In this document: in pieces, positions 11,899-26,750 of the stretch
Position numbering within the stretch: position 1 is the stretch's first letter
How the letters are laid out: every line of letters starts with the position of its first letter
The notes under the pieces: generated by a model
The model's database searches: none
Told to the model about the DNA's origin: nothing
What the model saw: the letters and a program-made list of their open reading frames with translations, nothing else
Translations under genes and position numbers: made by a program
NCBI RefSeq assembly: GCF_018408855.1
Contig: NZ_AP024327.1
Span: 62,001 to 126,000 of the forward strand
DNA: 64,000 nt
Direction of reading: 5' to 3'
Source of the DNA: Caballeronia sp. NK8
Lineage (GTDB): Bacteria > Pseudomonadota > Gammaproteobacteria > Burkholderiales > Burkholderiaceae

Positions 11899-12354
11899 TC
11901 ATCGCTTCAATTCGAAGATGCTGTCGATCTCAACCGGGATGCCCATCGGCAACGTGTGCACGCCGAGCGCGCTTCGAGCCGGAAGCTTGTCTTGCCCGAA
12001 CAACGTCAGCAAGAGGTCACTGGCGCCATTGGCTACTTGCGGGTGCTGGATGAACGACTGTTCGGCACGCACATAGACTGTCAGTCGACTGCATCTCTCG
12101 ACGTTGTCGAGCCCGCATGCCTGGTCGACGCAGGCCAGGATCATGAGCATCGTCAGACGTGCCGCGTGCTGCGCCTTTTCCAGAGATATATCCCCGCCGA
12201 CTATTCCAACGATTGGCTTGCCATCCTCGAAGGGCCCCAGACCGGAGACATAGAGTTGACTCCCCGAAATGGAGGCCGTTCGATAGGAGCCGAGCGGGTT
12301 GATGGGAGGCGGCAATTCGAGGCCCGCTTGTGCAAGGCGTTCAGATACGTTCAT
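11899..12354 (-). CDS. RidA/YjgF family protein
   Basis: A 151-residue member of the long RidA subgroup that begins MNVSERLAQAGLELPPPI. The core strands SYRTASISGSQLYVSGLGP and the terminal VEIDSIFEL segment are visible. RidA proteins hydrolyse reactive enamines/imines formed by pyridoxal-phosphate enzymes; this subgroup often travels with catabolic genes and may have a specialised deaminase role. The chosen ATG (12354) starts at the family's conserved N-terminus; the longer frame upstream has no family similarity. It is isolated between the aldehyde dehydrogenase and the IclR gene. Confidence 0.85.
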   Translation of the reverse strand: MNVSERLAQAGLELPPPINPLGSYRTASISGSQLYVSGLGPFEDGKPIVGIVGGDISLEKAQHAARLTMLMILACVDQACGLDNVERCSRLTVYVRAEQSFIQHPQVANGASDLLLTLFGQDKLPARSALGVHTLPMGIPVEIDSIFELKR

Positions 12355-12469: not shown

Positions 12470-13261
12470 TCAGGCAAAAGAAATATTGGTCCCCCCGATA
12501 GCACGCGCCGTCTCGACAACCTGCGGCCCGATCTCCGCTATCGCACGCTCCAGGGTCCAGCGGGTTGAAGGCGCGGAAACGTTGACCGCGCCCACTGGCT
12601 TGCCGTTGGGCGCGAGGATCGCCGCTGCGATGTTGATATCGCCGTTGTAGTACTCGCCGTTGGCCCACGCGAAGCCACGCCCGCGCGCTTCGGCCAGCAA
12701 CTCGTTCAGCCGCGCGAGATCGGTCACGGTCTCCGACGTATACGGCACGCGCTCACAGACTTCGAGCAGGCCGCGAGCGGTGGGATCGGGCAGACGCGAA
12801 AGGATGGCGCGGCCCGTTGCCGTGCAGTAAACCGGCAAGCGCATGCCGATCGGCATGTTGACGAACATCTCGCGGTGCGTCGGAAAGCGGGCGATATACA
12901 CGACATCGTGTCCATCCAGTTCAGCGACGATGCAGGTCTCGCCGCACGCGCGATTGAGCGCATGAACATAGGGATTGGCGCTCTTCACGAGTGCGCTCGT
13001 CTGCAGATAACGCAGACCGACTTCGAGTGAGCGCGGCGCGAGCGAGTACACCTTGGTCGTTTCATTCTTGTGCAGATAGCCGAGCGCGACGAGCGTGAAG
13101 GCGAAGCGCTGAGCGGCGCTCTTGGTCATGCCTGCGGCCTCCGCGAGATCGCCGAGCTTCATGGTCGGGCGGTCTTCGGTGAACGCGGTGAGCAATTGCA
13201 GGCCGCGCGCAAGCGAATTGATATAGAGGCGTGATTCTTCGCTTTGCGTCATGTCGTTCAT
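12470..13261 (-). CDS. IclR-family transcriptional regulator
   Basis: A 263-residue regulator. The N-terminal winged helix-turn-helix covers roughly residues 10-75 (INSLARGLQLLTAFTEDRP, then LAEAAGMTKSAAQRFAFTL), followed by the GAF-like IclR effector domain with GMRLPVYCTATGRAILS and PNGKPVGAVNVSAPS. ATG 13261 was chosen over a much longer overlapping frame that has no family similarity. It is the last gene on the minus strand of the amino-acid importer/ureohydrolase group, 50 bases after the ATPase gene, and probably senses a substrate or intermediate of that group. Confidence 0.88.
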   Translation of the reverse strand: MNDMTQSEESRLYINSLARGLQLLTAFTEDRPTMKLGDLAEAAGMTKSAAQRFAFTLVALGYLHKNETTKVYSLAPRSLEVGLRYLQTSALVKSANPYVHALNRACGETCIVAELDGHDVVYIARFPTHREMFVNMPIGMRLPVYCTATGRAILSRLPDPTARGLLEVCERVPYTSETVTDLARLNELLAEARGRGFAWANGEYYNGDINIAAAILAPNGKPVGAVNVSAPSTRWTLERAIAEIGPQVVETARAIGGTNISFA

Positions 13262-13311: not shown

Positions 13312-14046
13312 TCAGGCGAGGATCTGCCCGAGAAACTCGCGTGCCCGCGCCGACTGCGGCGCGCTGAAGAAGCGCCGCGGTTCGCAGCTTTCGACGATCT
13401 TGCCATGATCCATGAACACGATGCGATCGCCTACCTCGCGCGCGAAGCCCATTTCGTGCGTGACACATATCATCGTCATGCCGTCGCGCGCGAGCTGCAT
13501 CATCGTATCGAGCACTTCCTTCACCATCTCGGGATCGAGCGCCGAGGTCGGCTCGTCGAACAGCATGATGCGCGGCTGCATGCACAGGCTGCGCGCGATC
13601 GCGACACGCTGCTTCTGTCCGCCCGACAACTGTCCCGGATACTTGTTCACATGCGCACCGAGTTTCACGCGTTCAAGGTAATGCATCGCGAGGGCCTCGG
13701 CTTCCTTCGCGGGCATTTTTTTCACCAGCCTGAGCGCGGCGGTGCAATTGCCGAGCGCGCTCAGATGCGGAAACAGATTGAAATGCTGAAACACCATGCC
13801 GACGTTGGCGCGCACGCGGCGAATATTGGCTGCGCGGCCATCGAGCGCGATGCCGTTGACGACGATCTCGCCCTTCTGATGATCCTCCAGCGCGTTGACG
13901 AGGCGGATGGTCGTCGACTTGCCCGAGCCGGACGGGCCGCACAGAATGAGCCGTTCACCCGGTTGTACGTCGAGATCGATGTTGTCGAGCACCTGGAATT
14001 CGCCGTACCACTTGGAGACGGCGCGCATCGAAATGATCTGTTCCAT
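13312..14046 (-). CDS. polar amino-acid ABC transporter, ATP-binding protein
   Basis: A 244-residue ATPase of the HisP/GlnQ group. Walker A is GPSGSGKST, the signature is LSGGQKQR, Walker B is RIMLFDEPTSALDPE, and the switch His lies in VTHEMGFA. These residues power import by the permease encoded next to it. AGGAG lies upstream of ATG 14046. With the permease and solute-binding genes it makes a complete, tightly spaced importer (gaps under 35 bases). Only one permease gene is present, so the membrane part should be a homodimer. Confidence 0.92.
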   Translation of the reverse strand: MEQIISMRAVSKWYGEFQVLDNIDLDVQPGERLILCGPSGSGKSTTIRLVNALEDHQKGEIVVNGIALDGRAANIRRVRANVGMVFQHFNLFPHLSALGNCTAALRLVKKMPAKEAEALAMHYLERVKLGAHVNKYPGQLSGGQKQRVAIARSLCMQPRIMLFDEPTSALDPEMVKEVLDTMMQLARDGMTMICVTHEMGFAREVGDRIVFMDHGKIVESCEPRRFFSAPQSARAREFLGQILA

Positions 14047-14060
14047 GCACAGCGCTCCTG

Positions 14061-14753
14061 TCAGATCTTCGCGGCGGGATTGTGATCCGGCGCGCCGCTC
14101 CAGTAGCCGGGAATCGATAGCGACTTCTCTGCGCGACGGAACAGATACGACAGTGCACCGCACATCACGAAGTAGATCGCGCCGACGAGCGAATACACCA
14201 GCAGCGAACGGAACGTCGCGCCGGCGAGCATCTGTCCCGCGCGCATGAGTTCGTACACGCTGATGACCGCGACGAGCGACGTGTCCTTCACGAGCACGAG
14301 CGCATAGTTGCCGAGCGCGGGAAAAATCGTGCGTAGCGCCTGCGGCATGACGATCACGCGCATGCGCTGCGCGCGCGTCATGCCGAGCGCGCGCGATGCC
14401 TCGAATTGCCCGTTGTCCACCGACTGAATGCCGCCGCGAAACAGCTCCGCGAGATAGGCGCCGAAGTTGAGCACGAGTCCGAGCACGCCCGCGACGAAGC
14501 CGGGAATCACCACGCCCAGCTCGGGCAGGCCGTAGTAGAGAAAGAAAAGCTGCACGAGCAGCGGTGTGCCGCGAATGATTTCGATGTACGCCTTCGCAGC
14601 CGAGCGCACCGGCGCGACCGACGACATGCGGCAGAAGCACACCGCCAGCCCGAGCGCGACCGACAGCAGCGAGGACGCCGCGAACAGTGCGAAGGTCCAC
14701 CACGCGCCCTGCAACAGCGGCTCCAGATAGGTCTTGAGGATGTCGAGCGTCAT
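14061..14753 (-). CDS. polar amino-acid ABC transporter, permease
   Basis: A 230-residue inner-membrane permease of the HisMQ/GlnP family. The conserved segment EIIRGTPLLVQLFFLYYGLP and the ATPase-docking EAA loop FEASRALGMTRAQRMRVIVMPQ are both clear, with about five membrane helices. ATG 14753 is preferred to ATG 14768 because GGAG sits 6-7 bases before it. It lies between the solute-binding and ATPase genes. Confidence 0.92.
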   Translation of the reverse strand: MTLDILKTYLEPLLQGAWWTFALFAASSLLSVALGLAVCFCRMSSVAPVRSAAKAYIEIIRGTPLLVQLFFLYYGLPELGVVIPGFVAGVLGLVLNFGAYLAELFRGGIQSVDNGQFEASRALGMTRAQRMRVIVMPQALRTIFPALGNYALVLVKDTSLVAVISVYELMRAGQMLAGATFRSLLVYSLVGAIYFVMCGALSYLFRRAEKSLSIPGYWSGAPDHNPAAKI

Positions 14754-14786
14754 GGCGGGCTCCGTCATCGGGGTTCGGGTCGGACG

Positions 14787-15578
14787 TCAGTGACTTTCCA
14801 TGCTCGCCACGCCCCATTTGGCGAGGATCGTGTGCAGTTCGCCGTCCTGCTTCATTTTCGCGAGCGCATCGTTGACGGCGGCGAGCAGCGTCGGATTGTT
14901 CTTCTGCGTGCATGCGCCCACTTGCCACTGTTTCTGCGCGCGATACTCGGCGTCGAGCTTCACGCCCGGAATCGACTTCGCCTTGATCTGATACAGCACG
15001 CTCGGCGGATCGACCACGCCGAGATCGATGCGGCCCACGCGCACATCGGCCAGAAGCGAGAAGTAGTCCTGATACGTGGATACATCGGTGCCCGGCAGCG
15101 CCTTGATCATCTTGTACTGCACGCTGTCGACGAGCGTGCCGACCTTTGCGCCCTTGAAGTCCGTAAGCGAGCCGTAGTGCTTCCTGTCGCCATCGCGGAC
15201 GACGACGCCTTCGCCCCAGCCGTAGATCGGCGCGCTGAAATCGACCACCTGCGCGCGCTCCTCGGTGATGAAGAGCGGTGCGGCCATCACGTCGGCGCGG
15301 CCGGACGTGAGGGTCGGGATCAGGCCGTCGAACGGCACGTCGGTGAGCTTCACCGATACGCCGAGGCGCTTGCCGATCGCATCGGCGACATCGACCATGA
15401 TGCCTTTCATCGAGTTCGAAGCAGGATCGAGAAAGCCGTGCGGCGGACTCGACGCCGTCGTCACCACGTTCAGTGTCTTCGTCTGCATCACCTCGGCGAG
15501 CGTACGCGCACCCGCGGGCAATGCAATCAGGCTCGCGCAGGCCGCGGCGAGCAGAGGCAGCGATTTCAGACGTGTCAT
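14787..15578 (-). CDS. polar amino-acid ABC transporter, periplasmic solute-binding protein
   Basis: A 263-residue periplasmic receptor with a signal peptide of about 24 residues ending near PAGARTLAE. It carries the SBP_bac_3 pattern: LNVVTTASSPPHGFLD, then MVDVADAIGKRLGVSVKLTDV and IPTLTSGRADVMAAPLFITEER. That last stretch normally contacts the ligand's carboxylate. The alpha-amino acid-binding Arg/Asp pair is not obvious, so the ligand need not be a standard amino acid. It is 44 bases downstream of the ureohydrolase-like gene and probably co-transcribed with it. Confidence 0.9.
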   Translation of the reverse strand: MTRLKSLPLLAAACASLIALPAGARTLAEVMQTKTLNVVTTASSPPHGFLDPASNSMKGIMVDVADAIGKRLGVSVKLTDVPFDGLIPTLTSGRADVMAAPLFITEERAQVVDFSAPIYGWGEGVVVRDGDRKHYGSLTDFKGAKVGTLVDSVQYKMIKALPGTDVSTYQDYFSLLADVRVGRIDLGVVDPPSVLYQIKAKSIPGVKLDAEYRAQKQWQVGACTQKNNPTLLAAVNDALAKMKQDGELHTILAKWGVASMESH

Positions 15579-15622
15579 GGCGGGTCTCTTCGCAAGTAAT
15601 TGAACGATGATCCTGCGTGCGG

Positions 15623-16534
15623 CTAACGGGTTTGCGGCAGCGATTGCGCGGCGAGCGCGCAGCATTCCAGCATGACGGTCGCGGCCAGGAAGGCGGTGGC
15701 CTCGCCGACGTCCTGCGCGGGCGAGACCGTGTTCACGTCGAAGGAGACGAAATTCATGCCCGCGAACGCGCGCAACAGCGCGATCCCTTCCTTCGGATTC
15801 AGGCCGCCCCATTCCGGCGTGCAGACGCCCGGCGCGCACGACGGATCGAAGATGTCCATGTCGAAGCACAGATAAACGGGCCGCGCGCCGATGCGCTCGC
15901 GGATTCGCGCGATGCAGCCATCCCGGTCTGCTTCGAATTCGGAGAACGGCACGACGTTGTAGCCGAGCGAGCGCCCGAATCCGAGCACGCCGTCCATGAA
16001 GGTCGTGCCGCGCGCGCCCACATGAAAGCTGGCGTGCGTATCGAGCAAGCCTTCCTCGGACGCGCGCGTGAAGGTGGTGGCCGTGTTGAAACCGTCGAGA
16101 TCGTAGGTGTCGGTGTGCGCGTCGATATGCAACAGGACGAGATCCGGATGACGCCTCTTCACCGCGCGAAGTTGCGGCAGCGTCACCGCGCCGTCGCCGC
16201 CCATCGTGACCGGCGTCATGCCCGCGGCGAGCAGTTCGTCCATGGCTTGCTCGATCAGCGGATAACTGCGCGCGACATCGCCCGGATGACAGTCGACGTT
16301 CCCGGCATCGACAAGACGCAGCGCCTCGACCGGATTCGCGACGCGCCCTTGCGGATCGACGAAGAAAGGACGCAGCAGCCGGGACTGACGGCGGATCGCA
16401 TCCGGACCTTCGCGCGAGCCGACGCGAAACGGATGCGTACCGCAATCGAACGGCACGCCGAGCACGCATGCGCGCGATGCGCCTTTGGCTGCGTCGGTTT
16501 TCATCGGCACGCCCATGAATGTGGCGGATGACAT
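15623..16534 (-). CDS. ureohydrolase (agmatinase/arginase) family protein with an altered active site
   Basis: A 303-residue protein with the arginase/agmatinase fold and length. Two metal motifs are kept: DAHTD (Asp138, His140, Asp142) and FDMDIFDP (Asp225, Asp227). But the GGDHS motif reads GGDGAVTLP, so the first metal-ligand His is Gly115; the H-G segment that holds the proton-shuttle His in agmatinase reads NTATTF (Thr151); and the guanidinium-binding Glu of the VEVSP motif is Thr269 (DVNTVSPAQD). It should still bind at least one metal, but canonical guanidine hydrolysis looks unlikely. It is the first gene of the minus-strand importer group, divergent from the aminotransferase operon, so it probably acts on the imported substrate. 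Confidence 0.85.
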   Translation of the reverse strand: MSSATFMGVPMKTDAAKGASRACVLGVPFDCGTHPFRVGSREGPDAIRRQSRLLRPFFVDPQGRVANPVEALRLVDAGNVDCHPGDVARSYPLIEQAMDELLAAGMTPVTMGGDGAVTLPQLRAVKRRHPDLVLLHIDAHTDTYDLDGFNTATTFTRASEEGLLDTHASFHVGARGTTFMDGVLGFGRSLGYNVVPFSEFEADRDGCIARIRERIGARPVYLCFDMDIFDPSCAPGVCTPEWGGLNPKEGIALLRAFAGMNFVSFDVNTVSPAQDVGEATAFLAATVMLECCALAAQSLPQTR

Positions 16535-16770: not shown

Positions 16771-18144
16771 ATGGAGTCGAACGAAGCCAGTGCGCTGTCT
16801 CAGCGCGACGCGCAGTTCCTTCTGCACCCGTTCACGAACGCCGTGAAAAACGCGCAGGAGGGCGGCAAGGTCGTGATGCGCGGGGAAGGCATCTATGTCA
16901 TCGACGAACACGGGCAAAAGCACATCGAAGCGCTGTCGGGGCTGTGGTGCGTCGCGGTGGGCTTCAGCGAGCAGCGACTGATCGATGCAGCGACGCGGCA
17001 GTTGTCCGTGCTGCCGTTCTATCACGCGTTCGTGCAGCGCTCGCATCAGCCGCTGATCGATCTCGCCGAAAAGCTGATCGGCATGGCGCCCGTGCCGATG
17101 AGCAAGGTGTTCTTCACCAACTCGGGCTCGGAGGCGAACGACACCGCGATCAAGCTTCTCTGGTACTGGGCGAACGCGCTCGGCAAGCCGGAAAAGAAGA
17201 AGATCATCAGCCGCCAGCGTGCGTATCACGGCGTGACGATCGGCTCGGCGAGTCTCACCGGCATGCCGCACGTCCACGGCGGGTTCGATCTTCCGCTCGA
17301 CGGCTTCCTGCATCTGACCGCGCCGCATTTCTACCGCGAAGGCAAAGCGGGCGAAACCGAGGATGCGTTCTCCACGCGTCTCGCCGATGAACTCGACACG
17401 CTGATCCAGCGCGAAGGCGCCGACACCATCGCGGCGATGTTCGCGGAGCCGCTGATGGGCGCGGGGGGCGTGATCGCGCCGCCTTCGGGCTATTGGAAGA
17501 AGATGCAGGCCGTCTTGCGCAAGCACGACATTCCGCTGGTCGCGGACGAAGTCATCTGTGGATTCGGACGGCTGGGCTGCATGTTCGGCTCGGAGTACTA
17601 CGGCATGACGCCCGACATCATGATTCTCTCGAAGCAGTTGTCGTCGGCTTATCTGCCGATCTCCGCGCTGATGATCAACGAACGAATCTATCGCCCGGTC
17701 GCGCAGGAGAGCGAGCGCCGCATGACCTTCGGTCACGGCTTCACGGCAGGCGGACATCCGGTGGCGGCAGCGGTCGCGCTCGAGAATCTCGCGGTCATCG
17801 AGGAACGCGGACTCGTCGGGCGCGCGCGCGTGCTCGGCGAGCGCATGCACGCGCGGCTCGCCGAACTGGCGGCGCATCCGCTCGTCGGCGAGGTGCGCGG
17901 AGCCGGGCTGATCGGCGCGATCGAACTGGTGGCGTCGAAAGAGGACAAGAGCCCGCTGGAGATGCCGGGCAAGCTCGGCGCGCTCGCGTCCGAAGCGCTC
18001 GCGCGACGGCACGTCATCACGCGCAATATCGGCGATGCCATCGCGCTGTGTCCGCCGCTCATCATCAGCGAGAGCGAACTGGACGATCTGATGCAGCGCG
18101 TGAGCGCGGCGATCGACGACGTCGCGCGGCAAGTGAAACCATGA
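16771..18144 (+). CDS. class III aminotransferase (aspartate aminotransferase family, omega-type)
   Basis: A 457-residue pyridoxal-phosphate enzyme. The phosphate-binding segment FFTNSGSEANDTAIKLL, the ring-stacking segment in RQRAYHGVTIGSAS, the cofactor Asp in LVADEVICGFGRLG and the Schiff-base Lys288 in MILSKQLSSAYLP are all present. The family moves amino groups from terminal or omega amines to pyruvate or 2-oxoglutarate. ATG 16771 has a GAGGAAG site upstream. It leads a tight operon (RidA, GntR, gamma-glutamyltransferase) and is divergent from the ureohydrolase-like gene, so it is likely the deaminating step for whatever amine the island handles. Confidence 0.9.
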   Translation: MESNEASALSQRDAQFLLHPFTNAVKNAQEGGKVVMRGEGIYVIDEHGQKHIEALSGLWCVAVGFSEQRLIDAATRQLSVLPFYHAFVQRSHQPLIDLAEKLIGMAPVPMSKVFFTNSGSEANDTAIKLLWYWANALGKPEKKKIISRQRAYHGVTIGSASLTGMPHVHGGFDLPLDGFLHLTAPHFYREGKAGETEDAFSTRLADELDTLIQREGADTIAAMFAEPLMGAGGVIAPPSGYWKKMQAVLRKHDIPLVADEVICGFGRLGCMFGSEYYGMTPDIMILSKQLSSAYLPISALMINERIYRPVAQESERRMTFGHGFTAGGHPVAAAVALENLAVIEERGLVGRARVLGERMHARLAELAAHPLVGEVRGAGLIGAIELVASKEDKSPLEMPGKLGALASEALARRHVITRNIGDAIALCPPLIISESELDDLMQRVSAAIDDVARQVKP

Positions 18145-18155
18145 CAGGAAACAGC

Positions 18156-18662
18156 ATGCGCATTGAAACCCGCCTGCGGGAGATGGGCGTCGAACTGCCC
18201 CTGAAGGAAGTCGGGCCGTCGTACTACGGCACGAAGTACGGCAAGATGAAGCCGTACTATGAATACGGCCAGTTGCTGCTGCTTTCCGGGCAGACGGCCG
18301 GCATCGACGCGCAAGGCAATGCGCGCTTCCCCGGCCGCGTAGGCCGTTCGATTTCGGTGGACGATGCCCGTCAGGCCGCGCGTCAGACGGGCATCCACTG
18401 CGTCGCGGCGATCAAGAACGCAGTCGCCGATCTGGATCGGGTCGTCGGCTTCGCGCGCGTGCTGAACTTCGTCGCCTGCGATCCGGATTTCACCGAGCCG
18501 CATCTCGTCGCCAGCGCGATGACGGATTTTCTCGTCGATGTATTCGGCGAAGAGATCGCCGTTGCGCCGCGCGCGACCATCGGCGTGACGTCGCTCGCCG
18601 ACGACTATTGCTTCGAGACCTGGGTCACCGTCGAGGTGGCGCCGCCTGCCGGGAGGCCGTGA
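18156..18662 (+). CDS. RidA family protein
   Basis: A 168-residue protein of the long RidA group, a paralogue at family level of the one at 11899. It begins MRIETRLREMGVELPL; the core includes LLLLSGQTAGIDAQGN and VVGFARVLNFVACDPDF. RidA proteins drain reactive imines made by pyridoxal-phosphate enzymes, which matches its position directly after the aminotransferase. An in-frame ATG at 18141 overlaps the aminotransferase stop (ATGA), but the ATG at 18156 has AGGAAA in front of it and begins at the conserved N-terminus. Confidence 0.86.
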   Translation: MRIETRLREMGVELPLKEVGPSYYGTKYGKMKPYYEYGQLLLLSGQTAGIDAQGNARFPGRVGRSISVDDARQAARQTGIHCVAAIKNAVADLDRVVGFARVLNFVACDPDFTEPHLVASAMTDFLVDVFGEEIAVAPRATIGVTSLADDYCFETWVTVEVAPPAGRP

Positions 18663-19321
18663 TGTCCGACCTGCTCGTACCGAAGGGCATCTCGCTCTCG
18701 GCCGAAGACGAAGCGTACCGCTTCATCGAAAGCGCCATCCGTGCGGGGCGTTATCGCGCGGGCGAGCGGCTCGTCGCCGAGGAGATCGCCGCCGAAATCG
18801 GCACGAGCCGCATGCCGGTGCGCGAAGCGTTTCGCCGGCTGTCGGCGGAGGGCCTGTTGCGCATCCGGCCGAATCGCGGCGTCATCGTGCGCGCGCTCGA
18901 CGCCGATGAAATGCGCGAAGTGTTCGAGATTCGCGCCGTGCTCGAAGGGCTGGCGGCGCGCATGGCAGTGCCCAGGATCGATCGTCACAGCATCGCCAAT
19001 CTCGAACAGCTGCTCGACCGCATGGAAAACGCCAACGCGGACCACGCGCTCTGGGTCACGTATCACCGCGATTTTCACGAGTATCTGACCGGTCTCGCGG
19101 GCATGCCGCGCCTGATGCGCCAGTTGTCCGGGCTGCATTCCGCGATCGAACCGTACATGCGCATCTGGCTGGAACACGCCGACAAACCGATGACATCGCG
19201 CGAGGATCACGGCGGTCTCATCGAGGTGCTTCAAGGCGGCGATCCGAAACGCGTCGAAGACGCCGTGCGCGAGCACGTGCGCGCGACCATTCCGGCGCTC
19301 GTCGAATTCGTGACTTCGTAA
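18662..19321 (+). CDS. GntR-family regulator, FCD subfamily (island copy 1)
   Basis: A 219-residue regulator. DNA-binding part: IESAIRAGRYRAGERLVAEE and IGTSRMPVREAFRRLSAEGL; the FCD domain follows (EVFEIRAVLEGLAARMA, then the helix with HRDFHEYL that supplies a metal-ligand His). The ATG overlaps the RidA stop by one base, so the two are translationally coupled. It is strikingly similar over its whole length to the GntR gene at 28865, at the opposite end of the island. It probably autoregulates the aminotransferase operon. Confidence 0.9.
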   Translation: MSDLLVPKGISLSAEDEAYRFIESAIRAGRYRAGERLVAEEIAAEIGTSRMPVREAFRRLSAEGLLRIRPNRGVIVRALDADEMREVFEIRAVLEGLAARMAVPRIDRHSIANLEQLLDRMENANADHALWVTYHRDFHEYLTGLAGMPRLMRQLSGLHSAIEPYMRIWLEHADKPMTSREDHGGLIEVLQGGDPKRVEDAVREHVRATIPALVEFVTS

Positions 19322-19348
19322 TCGCATGGATGCCCGAGGATCAACGAG

Positions 19349-20944
19349 ATGAGAAATTTCGAAGCGCCGGGACGTTCCCTCGTCATGGCGAAAGACGGCA
19401 TGGCGGCGACCTCGCACCCGGCGGCGTCCTATGCGGCCATCCGCATTCTCGAAGCGGGTGGCAATGCGATGGACGCAGCGGTGGCGGCGTGCGCGGTGCA
19501 GTGCGTGGTCGAGCCGGGATCGACGGGAATCGGCGGCGACTGCTTCGCGCTGTATTCGAAGCGCGGCGCGGACGACATCATCGCGTTCAACGGTTCCGGA
19601 TGGGCGCCGCAGGCGGCGAGCGTGGAAGCGTTGCGCGCGCTCGGCGTGGCCGAGATCGCGCGTCAGTCGCCACATGCGGTCACGGTGCCGGGCGCGGTCG
19701 ATGCGTGGGCGACGCTCGTCGCGGATCACGGTTCGATGCCGCTCGGAAGGCTTCTGGCTTCGGCCGTCGCGCTCGCGCGGGATGGCTACGCGGTCGCGCC
19801 GCGCGCGGCGTCGGACTGGGCGAAGCAGCGCGACGTGCTCGCAAGCGATGCGGTGAGCCGCGCGCGCATGCTGACGGACGGCCAACCGCCCAACGCCGGC
19901 GCCCTGCACAGGCAGCCGGAACTGGCGCGGGCGCTCGAGATCATCGGCGAGCGAGGGCGCGATGCGTTCTATCGCGGACCGGTCGCGCGCGATATCGTCG
20001 AATGTCTGCGAGGTCATGGCGGCCTGCATACGCTGGACGATTTCGCGCGTTATCGCGGCGAATACGTGCAGCCGATCAAGGCGAGCTTTCGCGGGCATGA
20101 GATCCACGAATGTCCGCCCAACGGGCAGGGCGTCATCGCGCTCCTGATCCTGAAGATTCTCGAAGGCTATGCGGCGGACGGCGATCCGTTGAGCGCGCAG
20201 CGTCTGCATCGCGAGATCGAGGCGACGCGTCTCGCTTATTCGATTCGCGATGCCTCGCTCTGCGATCCGCGCGCGGGCGGCGAGATGAATGTCGATGAAC
20301 TGCTGTCGGACGCGCACGCCGCCGCGCTGCGCGCGAAGATCGATGCAACGGAAGCACGCCACGCGATGGCGCCATCGCCCGCGGCGGAGCACAAGGACAC
20401 GGTGTACATCTGCGTCGTCGACAAGGATCGCAATTGCGCGAGCTTCATCAACTCGCTGTTTCATCCGTTCGGCTCGGGCATCATGTCGCCGGAATTCGGC
20501 GTGATGCTGCACAACCGCGGCCAGAGCTTTTCGATGCAGCCGGGTCATCCGAACGCCATCGCGCCGCACATGCGCCCGATGCACACGATCATTCCCGGCA
20601 TGATCACGCGCGACGGCAAGGTGCAAACCGTGTTCGGCGTGATGGGCGGGCACTATCAGGCGATGGGCCACGCGCACTTCGTCTCGAAGGTGCTCGACTA
20701 CGGTCTCGACATGCAGACGGCGCTCGACTTGCCGCGCGTGTTTCCGGTGCCGGGAACGGCTCGCGTCGAAGCCGAAGGCACCTTGCCCGACGAGATCAGA
20801 CGCGCATTGACGGAACGCGGATTCGAGCTCGTGCCGCCGAGCTGGGCGATCGGCGGCGGTCAGGCGATTTCCATCGACTGGGAGAACGGCACGCTGACTG
20901 GCGCTTCGGATCATCGGAAAGACGGCTGCGCGCTCGGTCTCTGA
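19349..20944 (+). CDS. gamma-glutamyltransferase family protein
   Basis: A 531-residue Ntn-hydrolase of the gamma-glutamyltranspeptidase family. The large-subunit start SHPAASYAAIRILEAGGNAM is classic, and the autocleavage/nucleophile Thr351 lies in HKDTVYICVVD, followed by small-subunit motifs NSLFHPFGSGIMSPEFG and the glycine-rich VFGVMGGHYQAMGH. There is no evident signal peptide, which differs from periplasmic GGT and points to a cytoplasmic role in catabolism, hydrolysing a gamma-glutamyl amide or an analogous bond. It ends the aminotransferase operon and is convergent with the amidohydrolase gene, with only 19 bases between stops. Confidence 0.87.
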   Translation: MRNFEAPGRSLVMAKDGMAATSHPAASYAAIRILEAGGNAMDAAVAACAVQCVVEPGSTGIGGDCFALYSKRGADDIIAFNGSGWAPQAASVEALRALGVAEIARQSPHAVTVPGAVDAWATLVADHGSMPLGRLLASAVALARDGYAVAPRAASDWAKQRDVLASDAVSRARMLTDGQPPNAGALHRQPELARALEIIGERGRDAFYRGPVARDIVECLRGHGGLHTLDDFARYRGEYVQPIKASFRGHEIHECPPNGQGVIALLILKILEGYAADGDPLSAQRLHREIEATRLAYSIRDASLCDPRAGGEMNVDELLSDAHAAALRAKIDATEARHAMAPSPAAEHKDTVYICVVDKDRNCASFINSLFHPFGSGIMSPEFGVMLHNRGQSFSMQPGHPNAIAPHMRPMHTIIPGMITRDGKVQTVFGVMGGHYQAMGHAHFVSKVLDYGLDMQTALDLPRVFPVPGTARVEAEGTLPDEIRRALTERGFELVPPSWAIGGGQAISIDWENGTLTGASDHRKDGCALGL

Positions 20945-20963
20945 GCGCGCGCCACGTGATGCG

Positions 20964-21833
20964 CTACGTCGCGCGTTCGAAGCCGTAGACCTCGGCCGCG
21001 TTGTCGACCATGATGCGCGCCGCGGTTTGCGCGTTGCCGCACCATTGCATGAACAGGTCGATGAGATGACCGTCGTCGGGCGGCGCGGCGGGCTTGGTCG
21101 GATGCGGCCAGTTGGTTGCGAAGAGGCATCGCTCGGGCGCGGTATCGATCAGCTTTCTCGCCAGCACCGCGACGTCCGCGTAATCCGGCGCGCCTTCGAG
21201 CGAGGTCTCGTACACGCCCGATGTCTTGACCCACGTGTTGCCGCGATCGACGAGTTCGAGCAGCGTGCGAAAGCCCGCGTGGGTCGGCTCGACCGGCGCG
21301 AGGAACTTGCCGTTGTGATCGATGACGAGCCGGCACGGCAGCGCGCGGAGCACCGCTGCGTGATCGGCGAGCGATCGGCCATCGGTTTGCAGCTGGACGT
21401 GCCAGCCGAACCTGGCGACGCGCGCGGCGAGTCCGGGCAGGCAGTCCCACGGCAATGCGCCGCCGGACAGCATGAAGAAGCGCACGCCGCGCACGCCGAG
21501 CGCCGTGAGTCTTTCGAGTTCCGCATCCGGCACGTCCGGCGGGACCACGGCGACGCCGCGTCCGTTCTCGCCGAGCGCGGCCATGGCGGCGAGCGTCGGC
21601 GCATTGTCGAAGCCATATACCGAGGGTTGCACCACGACCGCGCGCGCGAGTCCCAGCTGCTTTTGCACCTGCAAATAGTTGTCGATGCTGCCATGCGGCA
21701 CGGGTGGAAACGCGGCGGCCGCGTCCGTCGGACGTTCGGACGGCGCGAAATACGCGTGCATGTGGCAATCTGTGGCGCCGGCGGGCGGCCTGGTTGCGGG
21801 CGCGGACGGGTGGCGGATATCGCGCATCGTCAT
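20964..21833 (-). CDS. amidohydrolase (TIM-barrel, 2-pyrone-4,6-dicarboxylate hydrolase-like)
   Basis: A 289-residue metal-dependent or metal-independent TIM-barrel hydrolase of the Amidohydro_2 family. Visible: His24-x-His26 in TDCHMHAYF, His173 in VIDHNGKF, and the strand-8 position in FATNWPHPT. LigI-type lactonases carry Asp at that last position; here it is Asn241. The ATG at 21833 overlaps the stop of the upstream dehydrogenase (ATGA), so translation is coupled. It is the last gene of the long minus-strand operon and may open a lactone or cleave an amide produced by the Rieske oxygenase steps. Confidence 0.84.
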   Translation of the reverse strand: MTMRDIRHPSAPATRPPAGATDCHMHAYFAPSERPTDAAAAFPPVPHGSIDNYLQVQKQLGLARAVVVQPSVYGFDNAPTLAAMAALGENGRGVAVVPPDVPDAELERLTALGVRGVRFFMLSGGALPWDCLPGLAARVARFGWHVQLQTDGRSLADHAAVLRALPCRLVIDHNGKFLAPVEPTHAGFRTLLELVDRGNTWVKTSGVYETSLEGAPDYADVAVLARKLIDTAPERCLFATNWPHPTKPAAPPDDGHLIDLFMQWCGNAQTAARIMVDNAAEVYGFERAT

Positions 21834-22834
21834 GCGTCGCTGTGCGCCAATCGCGCCGTACGATGCGCATCGCGCGAATTCACGGCCAGCGCCACGGGCC
21901 GGCCCGCGAGTAGATCGCGCACCTGACGCACCGTTTCGACCGCCTGATAATCCGACGCTTCCGGCGTGAGCCCGGCCACATGCGGCGTGGCGACGACATT
22001 CGGCAGACGCGCGATGGCGGGATTCGGCTGCTCGTCCTTGCCGCGTCCGACATCGAGCCCCGCGCCCGCGATGCGCCCGGACCTGAGCGCGGCTTCGAGC
22101 GCCGCTTCGTCGACCAGCACGCCGCGCGAAACGTTGATGAAGAACGCGTCGCGACGCATCTGCGCGAAAGCGCGCTCGTCGAACAGGTTGGTGGTCTCCG
22201 GCGTCGCATAGGCCGCGCAGACGACGAAATGCGCTTCGCTCAGCAGTTCGGACAGGCCCGTCTGAGTCACCGCGCCATGATGAATCTCGACATACGGATC
22301 GTTGACGAGCACGCGCATGCCGAACGCTATCGCCAGATCGACGATGCGCCGCCCGATCGCGCCGTAGCCCACCACGCCGATGGTGCTGCCGTAGAGCTGC
22401 CGGCCGAGCACCATCGGATGATCGGCGAGGCCGTCCTTGTAGCTCGACGCGCTCTCGCTGATCTTGCGCGCGAGATCGATCATCAGGCCGAGCGCGAGCT
22501 CGGACACGGCTTGCGCATAACCCGCGCTGCAACGCACGACGAGAATGCCGTTGCGCGAGGCCGCCGCGACGTCGACGTTGCGGATATCGACCGCGCAGCG
22601 CAGATACGCGGCGAGCTTCGGCAGACGATCGAAGACCTCCGCCGTGCCGGGCGCGAGCCGGTCGGAAATGACGATATCGCAGTCCTGCGCGGCTTCGACG
22701 AGCGCATCGCCGCGCAAGGGCTCGTCGGTGCCGTTCATCTTCACGTCGACGAATTCGCGCAGCCGCTCGACCGCGCGCGCGCTGTAGAAGTTGTCGAGCA
22801 GATCCCTGTTATGGGTGATGAGCACGCGTGTCAC
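21830..22834 (-). CDS. D-2-hydroxyacid dehydrogenase family NAD(P)-binding protein
   Basis: A 334-residue dehydrogenase. The Rossmann motif is GVVGYGAIGRRIVD and the catalytic set is Arg in NVSRGVLVDE, the acidic residue around GRGKDEQP, and His in ATPHVAGLTPEA. It should interconvert a 2-oxoacid and a D-2-hydroxyacid. GTG 22834 is the start: GGAGG lies 7 bases upstream, and the GTGA overlaps the Rieske gene's stop. It sits between the Rieske oxygenase and the amidohydrolase, with 4-base overlaps on both sides, showing a single translationally coupled unit. Confidence 0.88.
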   Translation of the reverse strand: MTRVLITHNRDLLDNFYSARAVERLREFVDVKMNGTDEPLRGDALVEAAQDCDIVISDRLAPGTAEVFDRLPKLAAYLRCAVDIRNVDVAAASRNGILVVRCSAGYAQAVSELALGLMIDLARKISESASSYKDGLADHPMVLGRQLYGSTIGVVGYGAIGRRIVDLAIAFGMRVLVNDPYVEIHHGAVTQTGLSELLSEAHFVVCAAYATPETTNLFDERAFAQMRRDAFFINVSRGVLVDEAALEAALRSGRIAGAGLDVGRGKDEQPNPAIARLPNVVATPHVAGLTPEASDYQAVETVRQVRDLLAGRPVALAVNSRDAHRTARLAHSDA

Positions 22835-23982
22835 GCCAAACCTCCAGACAGGTGTGCGGGCAGCCGCGCGGCGACCCAGCTGTTCATCGTGTGCACCACG
22901 TCGTCGCGCGACGACAGCACGCCCGGCTTGTACAGCACGGAACTCACACCGCGCTGCTGTCTTTCGAGAATGGCGACGTCCTCGCGCGCGACGGCTTCCC
23001 AGCGTTCGAAGTACGGACGCGCGCGCTCGTCGAAGTCCGGCATCTCCGTGTAGGCGCGCGGAAAACAGCCGCCCACGCTCAGCACCGAACGGTCCGCGGC
23101 GACGGGATGGACCGCGAGCCACCACATGCAGTCCTGCGCGAACACGAGCTGCGTGAGCGGTTCGATCAGCGTGAAGAACGTGCCTTTGCGCGCGATGTCG
23201 CTCAAGCCTTCGATCTGCGGAAAGGGTGGCGGGGCGCTCTTGTCGAGCACGGCGGTCGAGACGTCGGACTGCACCTGGATCGCGTGCCAGTTCGGGCCGC
23301 CGGGAAACGTGAGACTGATTTGCGCGCCGACCGTGCGCGCATGCACGAGGCCCGTGTGGTACGTCTCCATCGCGTTTTCGAGCAGCATCTTCCAGTTGCA
23401 CGCGGCGGGAAGATCGACACGAAACACGCAGCGCATCTCCTCCACGCGATGCGATGCGAACAGCTCGGGATACGTGCCGAGATGCGTCTCGAGATCGTCG
23501 GCGGCGTCGTCGAAGTTGAGAAAGAGGTTGCCTTTCCACTCGCGCATGCGCACCGGAATCAAGCCTTCGGCGGCCGGATCGAAACCCGGTACGTCCTGCG
23601 TGCCCGGCGCGCGCAGCAAGGTGCCGTCGAGCCGGTACGACCACGCATGATACGGGCACACGATGCTGCGCTTCGCACCGCAGCCTTCGAGCAGTTGCGC
23701 CCCGCGATGACGGCAGGTATTCGCGAACGCATGCAGTTCGCCGTTGTCGTCGCGCGTGAGCACGACGGGACCGCCCGCGGTGTCGATCGCGCGATAGCTG
23801 CCCGGCGTGCGCAGTTCGTCCGCGCGCCCGACGAAGAACCAGTGCCTGAGAAAAATATGCTCGCGCTCGGCATCGAACACTTCGCGCGAGGTATAGAAGC
23901 TGCCCGGCATGCTGCGCGCCTGGCCAAGCGATTTTCCCGACCAGATGAACGGCGCCGGGCGTTGCGTGATGTCGGAATGCAT
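22831..23982 (-). CDS. Rieske non-haem iron oxygenase, alpha subunit
   Basis: A 383-residue oxygenase. The [2Fe-2S] Rieske site is Cys90-x-His92 (CRHRG) and Cys109-x2-His112 (CPYHAW); the mononuclear iron site uses His209 and His214 in ENAMETYHTGLVH, with a C-terminal Asp in the EDVAILERQQRG helix. Such enzymes hydroxylate aromatics or demethylate/demethoxylate; the CPYHAW/ENAMETYH style is closer to the O- and N-demethylating and choline-type branch than to two-subunit aromatic dioxygenases. No beta subunit, ferredoxin or reductase gene is nearby, so electrons must come from an enzyme encoded elsewhere. Confidence 0.9.
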   Translation of the reverse strand: MHSDITQRPAPFIWSGKSLGQARSMPGSFYTSREVFDAEREHIFLRHWFFVGRADELRTPGSYRAIDTAGGPVVLTRDDNGELHAFANTCRHRGAQLLEGCGAKRSIVCPYHAWSYRLDGTLLRAPGTQDVPGFDPAAEGLIPVRMREWKGNLFLNFDDAADDLETHLGTYPELFASHRVEEMRCVFRVDLPAACNWKMLLENAMETYHTGLVHARTVGAQISLTFPGGPNWHAIQVQSDVSTAVLDKSAPPPFPQIEGLSDIARKGTFFTLIEPLTQLVFAQDCMWWLAVHPVAADRSVLSVGGCFPRAYTEMPDFDERARPYFERWEAVAREDVAILERQQRGVSSVLYKPGVLSSRDDVVHTMNSWVAARLPAHLSGGLA

Positions 23983-24006
23983 GGTGTTGTCCTTCGTGCG
24001 CGCGAT

Positions 24007-25146
24007 TTATTTCTGCTGGCCGGCGAGCGCGAACTTGCCGTCGTGCGCCGTGAAGAAATAGAGCGTGCCCTTGCGATCGCCGCTCTTTTCGAACGCGACC
24101 GGTCCTGTCACGCCGGTGACGTTTACGCTCGAGAGCGCCGCGTTGACCGAATCGCGCGTGACCGGGCCCTTGGCCTTCGCCGCCTTCACCGCGTTGCCGA
24201 TGGCAAGCCCCGCGTCGTAGCCGAGTGCCGCCCAGCTATCGGGCGCCTGACCGTATTTCGCCGTGAACGCCTTGACGAACGCGGCGCTTTGCGACGACGA
24301 ATGCGACGAAGCATCCGGATCGAACATGCCATAGAGCGTCATGCCGTCGACCGCGTTGTTGGACAGGCTGATGAGTTGCGGCGACAGCGAGCCGTCCGTG
24401 CCGAGAATCTTCGCGTCGATGCCGAGCGCCTTCGCCTGCGTGACGATCTGCGCGGCCTCCGTATAGAAGCCGCCGATGAAGAGGCCATCCGGATGCGCGG
24501 CCTTCACCTTGGTCAGGATCGTGCGGAAATCCTTGGTGCCGAGCACATAACCGCCTTCGCCGACGATCTTCCCGCCTGCCTCCTGATAGGCCGACTTGAA
24601 CGCGCCGTTCACGCCGAGACCGTAGTCGTCCTGCTGATAAAGCGTGTAGACGGTTTTGACATGCAGCTGATTGGCGGTGTACTGGCCCATCATCTTGCCC
24701 TGAATGGCATCGGTCAGGACCACGCGGCGAAACCACGGGCTCGCGTTGGAGAGCTGAGGGCTCGTGACCGCCGTGCCGATCGTCGGCATCTTGCACTTCT
24801 TGTAGAGCGGCACGGCGGCGAGCGCGATCGAGCTGAACGTATAGCCCACGACCGCCACGGTATTGTCGTCGCCGCAGAAGCGGTTTGCGGCGAGCACGCC
24901 ATCGTTCGGCTGGCCATGATCGTCGACGGTATCGACCTCGATCTTCGGGCCGCCTTGCGCGTTGATATCCGCAATGGCGAGATCGAATCCTTTCTTGCCG
25001 CTCACGCCGTAGGTGGCGAAGTCGCCGGTGAGCGTGCCGGTGAAGGCGACGTGAACCGCGTCGTCCGCCCAGGCCGGCGACGCGGCGAGCGCAAGCGCCA
25101 GCGTGGCGGGGCATAGTATGGGACACAGCTTGCGAAGAACGTTCAT
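24007..25146 (-). CDS. branched-chain amino-acid-type ABC transporter, periplasmic substrate-binding protein
   Basis: A 379-residue periplasmic receptor with a signal peptide ending near SPAWADDAVHV. It has the two-lobed LivJ/LivK pattern (AFTGTLTGDFATYGVSGKKG, then GVLAANRFCGDDNTVAVVGY with a Cys likely in the conserved disulfide). Members of this family bind amino acids, amides, urea or aromatic acids, so the ligand is not fixed. GGGGAAA precedes ATG 25146. It lies between the ATPase genes and the Rieske gene within one operon. Confidence 0.9.
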   Translation of the reverse strand: MNVLRKLCPILCPATLALALAASPAWADDAVHVAFTGTLTGDFATYGVSGKKGFDLAIADINAQGGPKIEVDTVDDHGQPNDGVLAANRFCGDDNTVAVVGYTFSSIALAAVPLYKKCKMPTIGTAVTSPQLSNASPWFRRVVLTDAIQGKMMGQYTANQLHVKTVYTLYQQDDYGLGVNGAFKSAYQEAGGKIVGEGGYVLGTKDFRTILTKVKAAHPDGLFIGGFYTEAAQIVTQAKALGIDAKILGTDGSLSPQLISLSNNAVDGMTLYGMFDPDASSHSSSQSAAFVKAFTAKYGQAPDSWAALGYDAGLAIGNAVKAAKAKGPVTRDSVNAALSSVNVTGVTGPVAFEKSGDRKGTLYFFTAHDGKFALAGQQK

Positions 25147-25185
25147 GATCGTTTCCCCTAGAGTGTGAATGATCGATGCATCACG

Positions 25186-25892
<707 letters not shown>

Positions 25893-25896
<4 letters not shown>

Positions 25897-26750
25897 GTGC
25901 GTTTGCCCAGATAGGCGGACTGCACGTCGTCGTGGGCAAGCACGGCCTGCGGTGTGCCCTCGATCAGCTTGCTGCCGAAATGAAGCACGGTGACGCGATC
26001 GGCGAGATTGCGGATCACGTCCATGTCGTGCTCGATGAGCAGAATCGCGACGCCTTGCGCGCGAATCTGCCGGATCAGTTCACTCAACTCCAGCTTCTCG
26101 CTGACGTTCATGCCCGCGAGCGGTTCGTCGAGCAGCAGCACGCGCGGTTGTGCGATGAGCGCGCGCGCCAGCTCCACGCGGCGCTGATGTCCGTACGACA
26201 ACGCGCTCGCCTGCTTGGTGGCGGCATGTGCGCCGAGTCCGACGAATTCGATCAGCCGATGCGCATCCGCGACGGCCGCCTTCTCCTGCTCACGCGCCTT
26301 CTTCGTGCGCAGCAGCGCCGCGAGCGCGCCTCCGTCGAAGCGGCTGTGCGCGCCGACGAGCACGGTTTCCAGCACGTTCATCGAACCGAACAGCCGTGTG
26401 TTCTGGAATGTGCGTCCGAGTCCGGCGCGCGCGAGCGTGTGCGAGCGCCAGTGCGGCGAACTCGCGCCGTTGATCCAGACCTGACCTGCGCTCGGCCGCA
26501 CGAAACCCGACAGCGCATTGACGACCGTGGTCTTGCCCGCGCCGTTCGGCCCGATGAGCGCGTGGATCTCGTGCTCCTGAACGTCGAGATCGAGTTGCTT
26601 CACGGCGGTCAGCCCACCGAACGTGACGGTCAGCCCCTGCGCGCGCAACGGCAGACCGACGCCGCCTTGCGTCGCGGCGCGCGTGGCACCGGCGTGAGCG
26701 TGCGCGGTGTCGATGTTCATGGCGAGGGATGGGCCTCTGGCGTTCGTCAT
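25893..26750 (-). CDS. branched-chain-type ABC transporter ATP-binding protein LivG-like
   Basis: A 285-residue ATPase: Walker A GPNGAGKTT, a LivG-type LSYGHQRRVELARAL signature, Walker B VLLLDEPLAGMN and the VIRNLADRVTVLHFGSKL end. It carries about 30 extra residues at the N-terminus, rich in Ala and His, before the first ATPase strand; ATG 26717 is an alternative start. ATG 26750 is kept because GGAGTG precedes it, leaving a 3-base gap to the permease stop. Confidence 0.92.

Follow-up and report, generated by a model that had tools for sequence, protein, structure and literature searches.

The window, a stretch of 64,000 nucleotides of DNA from Caballeronia sp. NK8, carries a gene for a ureohydrolase-like protein (ATG start, 303 codons plus stop) together with genes for an importer, two regulators and a number of putative catabolic enzymes. 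The genes at and around this locus, as delimited by codon-scored gene calls, are listed below; 'DG' is our name for the subfamily of the ureohydrolase-like protein and is taken from its GGDG motif.

11899..12354, minus strand: RidA-like protein downstream of the operon, which clusters with the gene at 18141 (a weak assignment); the longer reading frame here gave no NCBIfam match and, in the loci comparison, no match at 1e-15
12470..13261, minus strand: IclR-type regulator (gene call, family named by eye), also near the gene in betaproteobacterial relatives
13312..14046, minus strand: ABC ATPase of the same importer (gene call, family named by eye)
14061..14768, minus strand: polar amino-acid type ABC permease (NCBIfam profile match)
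14787..15578, minus strand: polar amino-acid type ABC substrate-binding protein (gene call; PDB relatives mainly amino-acid binding proteins, AncQR the best)
15623..16534, minus strand: DG-type ureohydrolase-like protein, 303 amino acids, with the motifs GGDG, NTATTF, FDMD and DVNTVSP
16771..18144, plus strand: class III aminotransferase, divergent (NF004767, 712.9 bits)
18141..18662, plus strand: RidA/YjgF-like protein (PF14588, 28.5 bits, below the cut-off of 35)
18659..19321, plus strand: GntR-type regulator (NCBIfam profile match)
19349..20944, plus strand: gamma-glutamyltransferase-like protein (TIGR00066, 339.8 bits, below the cut-off of 357.85)
20964..21833, minus strand: PF04909 amidohydrolase/lactonase-like protein, whose relatives adjoin the clade gene in L054, L056, L076, L170 and L191
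21830..22834, minus strand: D-2-hydroxyacid dehydrogenase (family searches and loci comparison)
22831..23982, minus strand: Rieske oxygenase, GbcA-like (157.7 bits, cut-off 670), whose relatives adjoin the clade gene in L037, L054, L076 and L191
24007..25146, minus strand: branched-chain type ABC binding protein (livK-like), whose relatives adjoin the clade gene in L054, L076 and L191

The ureohydrolase-like gene is the first of five same-strand genes spaced 14-50 bases apart and is followed, in order, by those for the binding protein, the permease, the ATPase and the IclR-type regulator, which bears out the preliminary description of it as the head of an importer operon. The relatives of the binding protein are mainly amino-acid binders and name no single ligand for the importer. 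As for control by a riboswitch, neither the window nor seven of the fetched loci gave any Rfam family above threshold. An open reading frame of 304 amino acids at 15617-16531 on the plus strand lies antisense to the ureohydrolase-like gene, as is usual in GC-rich DNA. In the region 18141-25900, the RidA-like, PF04909, 2-hydroxyacid dehydrogenase, Rieske and branched-chain importer genes recur in the distant loci L054, L076 and L191; relatives of the RidA/YjgF-like gene at 18141..18662 adjoin the DG gene in L054, L062, L076 and L191, and the gamma-glutamyltransferase gene also recurs beside it in L076 and L191. Because the flanking genes recur in this way around the clade gene in L054, L076 and L191, the part of the window between roughly 11.9 and 26 kb may represent one catabolic island.

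The sole Pfam family found in the window protein is PF00491, the arginase family, which it matches over nearly its full length (residues 22-291, 243.7 bits against a cut-off of 22); four more PF00491 genes lie elsewhere in the Caballeronia sp. NK8 genome. An AlphaFold model computed from an alignment of 37 rows has the ureohydrolase fold, with a mean pLDDT of 88.6 and a pTM of 0.91, and its best fold match in the PDB is guanidinopropionase 3niq (E 4.7e-27, TMq 0.89, 39% identity), so the fold is intact. Model confidence is lower at residues 31-40, 231-240 and 271-280, which include active-site loops (block means of 65, 58 and 64, respectively).

It is in the active site that the protein departs from its family. 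Gly115 occupies the position of the metal-A histidine, Thr151 that of the shuttle histidine and Thr269 that of the guanidinium-binding glutamate, and the five other metal residues, Asp138, His140, Asp142, Asp225 and Asp227, are kept; this reading of the eight positions stands exactly as first described, to which we add the strand, which was not then given. The window protein thus has neither the full set of six metal residues (two His and four Asp) nor the shuttle histidine nor the guanidinium glutamate by which a canonical binuclear ureohydrolase is defined, and these replacements, together with a score under the cut-off of the NCBIfam agmatinase family TIGR01230 (167.6 against 174.3 bits), rule out an identity as a canonical agmatinase.

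The same residues are found throughout the relatives of the window protein. Among the best 120 of 3841 homologues, Gly115, Asn268, His171 and the five other metal residues occur in all 120, Thr269 and Cys223 each occur in 119 (one protein has Pro at 269), and position 151 is T in 114, N in three, A in two and S in one, but never His. A profile search of whole genomes, in which no motif was used, yielded 24 distinct proteins, every one of which has Gly115, Asn268, Thr269 and the five metal residues, with His171 and Cys223 each in 23. A homologue that kept Glu269 or His115, and so pointed to a local error in the window, was found neither in the best 120 of 3841 nor in these 24. Cys238 was considered as a further defining residue, being present in 119 of the best 120 of 3841 homologues, but was dropped as only 9 of the 24 profile-found proteins have it.

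A further set of 104 distinct DG proteins, drawn from 107 loci, leans towards certain residues, as 79 were fetched via DNA patterns for FDVNTVSP and YLCFDMD and GGDG was required of all, such that the 120 and the 24 are the unbiased sets for Asn268, Thr269, Met226 and Gly115. In this set five of the six metal residues, including Asp142, are kept in 104/104, as are Met226 and Val237; Gly is found at position 238 in none; position 151 reads T in 64, P in 11, V in 10, S in eight, N in six and A in five, with no His; and Tyr144 (100), Ala152 (95), Trp242 (95), His34 (94), Asn150 (92) and Cys31 (91) are widespread. No family reading frame above 300 bits that lacked GGDG was found in the 107 loci. 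By comparison, 61 canonical proteins have Glu at 269 and Gln at 171 without exception, Val (60) or Met (1) at 268, His at 115 in 60, His at 151 in 59 and Gly at 238 in 59, where the absence of Gly115 is no evidence since this set was chosen as lacking GGDG. The clade-wide changes therefore extend beyond the three first noted to Asn268, Val237, Met226, Cys223, His171 and the loss of Gly at 238, and, relative to the canonical proteins, two histidines have been gained and two lost. Of the 23 DG-specific positions, 12 are no more than two residues away from one of ten active-site positions named by us, against 2.9 expected, which is weak taken alone, as conserved positions cluster there in any family; two of the ten, 144 and 239, were placed by arginase numbering, which we take to apply here. 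One record, P0074, which has no contig, combines an N-terminal half unlike the window protein with an almost identical C-terminal half and is probably chimeric; it was included in the search profile, the structure alignment and the 120 homologues and excluded from the 104 and from the tree.

In a tree built without the signature columns (a quick search with SH-aLRT support and no bootstrap), 41 DG proteins are split from 18 canonical proteins by a branch with an SH-aLRT of 100, such that the three changes do belong to one clade, a point that the preliminary description had left to phylogeny. Bit scores also leave a clean gap within the searched sets, the weakest DG protein scoring 338.7 and the strongest canonical one 279.9. 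The ratio dN/dS between the window gene and its relatives is 0.186 for L006, 0.139 for L007, 0.085 for L008 and 0.111 for L009 (the last over 204 codons only), and that between L007 and L008 is 0.122. Values of 0.085-0.186 agree with the earlier view that the protein is not decayed and, with the residues common to the homologues, rule out a sequencing error or a pseudogene. The DG clade has a single origin, is under selection and represents an arginase-family variant whose active site has been rebuilt.

Its distribution is patchy. A scan of a species-level genome collection gave 182 stretches with an encoded relative, from which 80 loci were kept; scores above 340 bits were obtained in 2 of 398 Pseudomonadota whole genomes, DG proteins occur in 24 of 385 alphaproteobacterial genomes and, out of 120 sampled genomes of the window's own family, only that of the window has one, the runner-up scoring 273.5 bits. 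Such a pattern fits an accessory catabolic trait. A keyword search of the literature found no earlier description of the clade, and the names that sources give, where they give one, to the best 120 of 3841 homologues are nearly always agmatinase or arginase family protein, the exceptions being guanidinobutyrase and proclavaminate amidinohydrolase, once each.

The neighbourhoods of the relatives were compared in 93 parsed loci, that is, 106 less 13 in which the gene caller found no family gene. An importer gene lies in the strand run of the DG gene (same strand, gaps under 250 bases) in 57 of the 93, and some loci have no importer nearby. Transporter genes of the window type follow the DG gene in Paraburkholderia, Cupriavidus, Achromobacter and Bordetella, and the IclR gene is downstream in Paraburkholderia, Cupriavidus and Caballeronia and upstream in Achromobacter and Bordetella. 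Elsewhere the importer is of the polar amino-acid type, accompanied by an M20 gene (Reyranella-like loci), of the polyamine/opine type (Roseovarius, Paracoccus and others) or of the branched-chain type (Marivibrio, L076, L191). A thiamine diphosphate (TPP) enzyme of the NF005760 type is in the strand run in 26 of the 93 parsed loci, of which 21 are from Achromobacter or Bordetella and the others are L039, L042, L053, L179 and L183; an M20 gene is present in 11 of the 93, and a 2-hydroxyacid dehydrogenase and a PF04909 gene together in five. Three further observations may be recorded here. The TPP enzyme, represented by L022:7271-8827 (NF005760, 'acetolactate synthase large subunit'), recurs in beta- and alphaproteobacteria with different importers. 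Locus L188 holds a canonical ureohydrolase gene (L188:640-1620, with GGDH, HGN and VEVAP) on the upstream side of the DG gene and 7.8 kb from it, with a divergent gene and the importer genes lying between. In L038, from a Kiloniellaceae genome bin, genes that on inspection by eye resemble an integrase followed by Cas9, Cas1 and Cas2 are situated downstream of the DG gene (L038:11576-17434).

The partner genes (TPP enzyme, M20, PF04909, Rieske and gamma-glutamyltransferase) are too mixed for one substrate to be named from them. They can be read as pointing to some other C-N chemistry on the same scaffold, with the protein acting as a cyclic amide, imine, formyl or acyl-amide hydrolase, or as a lyase, in the catabolism of N-methylated or opine-like compounds: RidA-like, M20, M28, PF04909, GbcA-like Rieske and 2-hydroxyacid dehydrogenase genes are neighbours across lineages, and the binding protein of L188 is related to binders of GABA, polyamines and opines. 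There is also a precedent in the histone deacetylases and acetylpolyamine amidohydrolases (PF00850), which have an arginase-like fold and, with one metal, cut the neutral C(=O)-N bond of acyl amides, although these enzymes form a different family and the window protein matched PF00491 only. We consider this reading unlikely, however, as the partners vary by lineage and the only link to have been tested statistically is that to a deiminase.

Deiminases convert a guanidino group to a ureido group. A gene resembling those of DDAH and arginine deiminase (DDAH/ADI-like) is located upstream of the DG gene within importer operons: in L188 it is the immediate neighbour, and in L187 and L193 a single gene intervenes. 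In L049 such a gene is found close by on the opposite strand, separated by one called gene, and in L066 the DG gene has an agmatine-deiminase-like gene 17 bases upstream of it. Their family matches and the presence of the Cys and His motifs (GGGGIHC; HIDG or GHVDG) suggest intact enzymes. In 88 of the 93 parsed loci, searches to a distance of some four genes gave no match to either deiminase probe. The copies at L188:8408-9418, L187:7235-8245 and L193:7264-8271, all in operons with opine/polyamine-type importers, represent a DDAH/ADI-like subfamily that has no name, and that of L188 scores far under the NCBIfam cut-offs.

At the level of whole genomes, the deiminase and DG scans each covered 385 alphaproteobacterial genomes and were taken as one set, since class, number and handles agree; with cut-offs of E up to 1e-60 for the deiminase subfamily and up to 1e-90 for the DG clade, the DDAH/ADI-like deiminase is present in 12, DG in 24 and both in 10, where 0.75 would be expected. 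A naive hypergeometric calculation gives 7e-12 and a count by genus (7/9 against 18/277) gives 5e-8, for a test devised after the operons had been seen and on related genomes that are not independent. Of the ten co-occurring deiminase genes, the G649 copy has two stop codons and the G612 copy is cut by a contig end. Agmatine deiminase, used as a yardstick, occurs in 78 of the 385 genomes and is itself enriched where the DDAH/ADI-like deiminase is present (6/12, 2.4 expected, p 0.019), so that a shared way of life may explain part of the link, though hardly a 13-fold excess. As a general partner of DG, agmatine deiminase was rejected: it is found in 9 of the 24 DG genomes against 4.9 expected (p 0.034), and a general agmatine route is not supported. 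Co-occurrence is a sign of the same pathway or the same diet and gives neither the order of steps nor the substrate.

Taken together, we judge that the DG protein is probably a working enzyme and that its substrate is probably a new one. It may well be, at about even confidence, an active hydrolase that works at the tight metal site on a non-guanidinium substrate, most plausibly a ureido compound. One tightly held divalent metal, perhaps with a weaker second held on three aspartates, would activate a water molecule for attack on a neutral, planar C-N group. The compound bearing this group would be an imported one that resembles an amino acid or a polyamine, and Asn268 and Thr269 would stand in for the charged clamp of the guanidinium. 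A ureido (N-carbamoyl) group, split to an amine, CO2 and NH3, would be the most plausible target; we favour it because a ureido group is what the deiminase makes and it needs no glutamate clamp. In the alphaproteobacteria the co-occurring deiminase would make this group, and in the window's organism the linked importer would bring the ureido compound into the cell. For the window, the ureido idea is an extrapolation across the family only, since neither the DDAH/ADI-like nor the agmatine deiminase gave a hit in the window's genome (two first-look candidates each). As to the metal, Asp142, a residue that in arginases binds metal A, is invariant; this speaks against a site strictly for one metal and suggests that a second, differently held metal is possible. 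Bolder, and offered tentatively, is the proposal that DG proteins are the first ureidohydrolases on the PF00491 scaffold. With an Asn-Thr pocket in place of the guanidinium clamp and with the tight metal alone, they would break down ureido compounds, whether imported as nutrients or produced by a deiminase that co-evolves with them, to amine, CO2 and NH3.

Whatever the substrate, the agmatinase and arginase-type activities implied by the source names are unlikely for DG proteins because the guanidinium glutamate is missing. As a natural experiment, the clade combines the replacement of all three residues that are critical in agmatinase with continued selection on the protein, and it would test the arginase scaffold on one metal and a neutral substrate. 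It also brings together a deiminase that has no name, several importers and a TPP enzyme in a single, as yet unexplored route of nitrogen scavenging.

The known enzymes closest to DG are the guanidinopropionase and guanidinobutyrase of P. aeruginosa (3nip, 3nio), which share its family, fold and length, are its best sequence, profile and fold matches, and carry the equivalents of Asp138, His140, Asp142, Asp225 and Asp227; in contrast to the GGDG, the lack of His at 151 and the NTVSP of DG, they have GGDH, the shuttle histidine and VEVSP. This closeness is one argument for a guanidino or amidine hydrolase that is active with its site rearranged. In such an enzyme gained residues, for instance His171 or His34, would bind metal or transfer protons in place of the lost ones, and the leaving product would be urea or an amide, as for an ordinary ureohydrolase. 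Two histidines were indeed gained while two were lost, L188 has a canonical ureohydrolase gene in the same stretch and, in the part of PMC11271267 available, the metformin hydrolase MetCa/MfmA (8snf, 8ryi) is active with Asn199 in place of the shuttle histidine and with an unusual, essential Ser289, which by spacing would fall at DG position 238. Unlike DG, however, MetCa keeps the metal-A histidine and Glu320 and needs Ni2+ and a pseudoenzyme partner, MetCb (same part of PMC11271267), whereas the guanidinium-binding glutamate is missing in all of the best 120 of 3841 homologues. His34, moreover, is Asn in 8 of the 104 distinct DG proteins; retention of guanidino chemistry is, in our view, improbable.

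Still less probable, to the point of being a slim chance, is that DG is a metal-free or non-catalytic partner or sensor akin to MetCb or to the Trypanosoma brucei arginase-like protein (4rhm group), which reportedly has an arginase fold with metal ligands missing. Such pseudoenzymes do occur in the arginase family and, like DG, MetCb has metal ligands missing; but, within the text of PMC11271267 at our disposal, MetCb lost five of six and its clade three to five, where DG has lost one and keeps the other five in 104/104. Nor was an adjacent catalytic partner found in the loci compared. A second family reading frame, as in a MetCa/MetCb-like pair, is absent from 106 of 107 loci, some of which are only a few kb long, and the sole instance, in L188, is 7.8 kb from the DG gene, so that a role as a MetCb-like partner protein was rejected.

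The preferred reading, an active hydrolase at the tight metal site, is best set beside the agmatinase SpeB of E. coli, residues 126, 149, 151, 153, 163, 230, 232 and 274 of which correspond to DG 115, 138, 140, 142, 151, 225, 227 and 269 when counted along a phmmer alignment to 7lol. According to the accessible portion of PMC8125230, the weak Mn of that enzyme is bound by His126 and the tight Mn by His151, the minimum is one Mn per site, almost half of the activity is left when the weak Mn is removed, and Asp153 orients the attacking hydroxide; the H163F mutant has 3-5% of the activity and E274A 1-2%, the latter with a defect in guanidine binding. DG replaces His126 of the weak metal, His163 and Glu274 and keeps the residues of the tight metal site and the equivalent of Asp153, and the new substrate and the one-metal chemistry first suggested for the window protein would, by analogy, fit this portion of the E. 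coli work.
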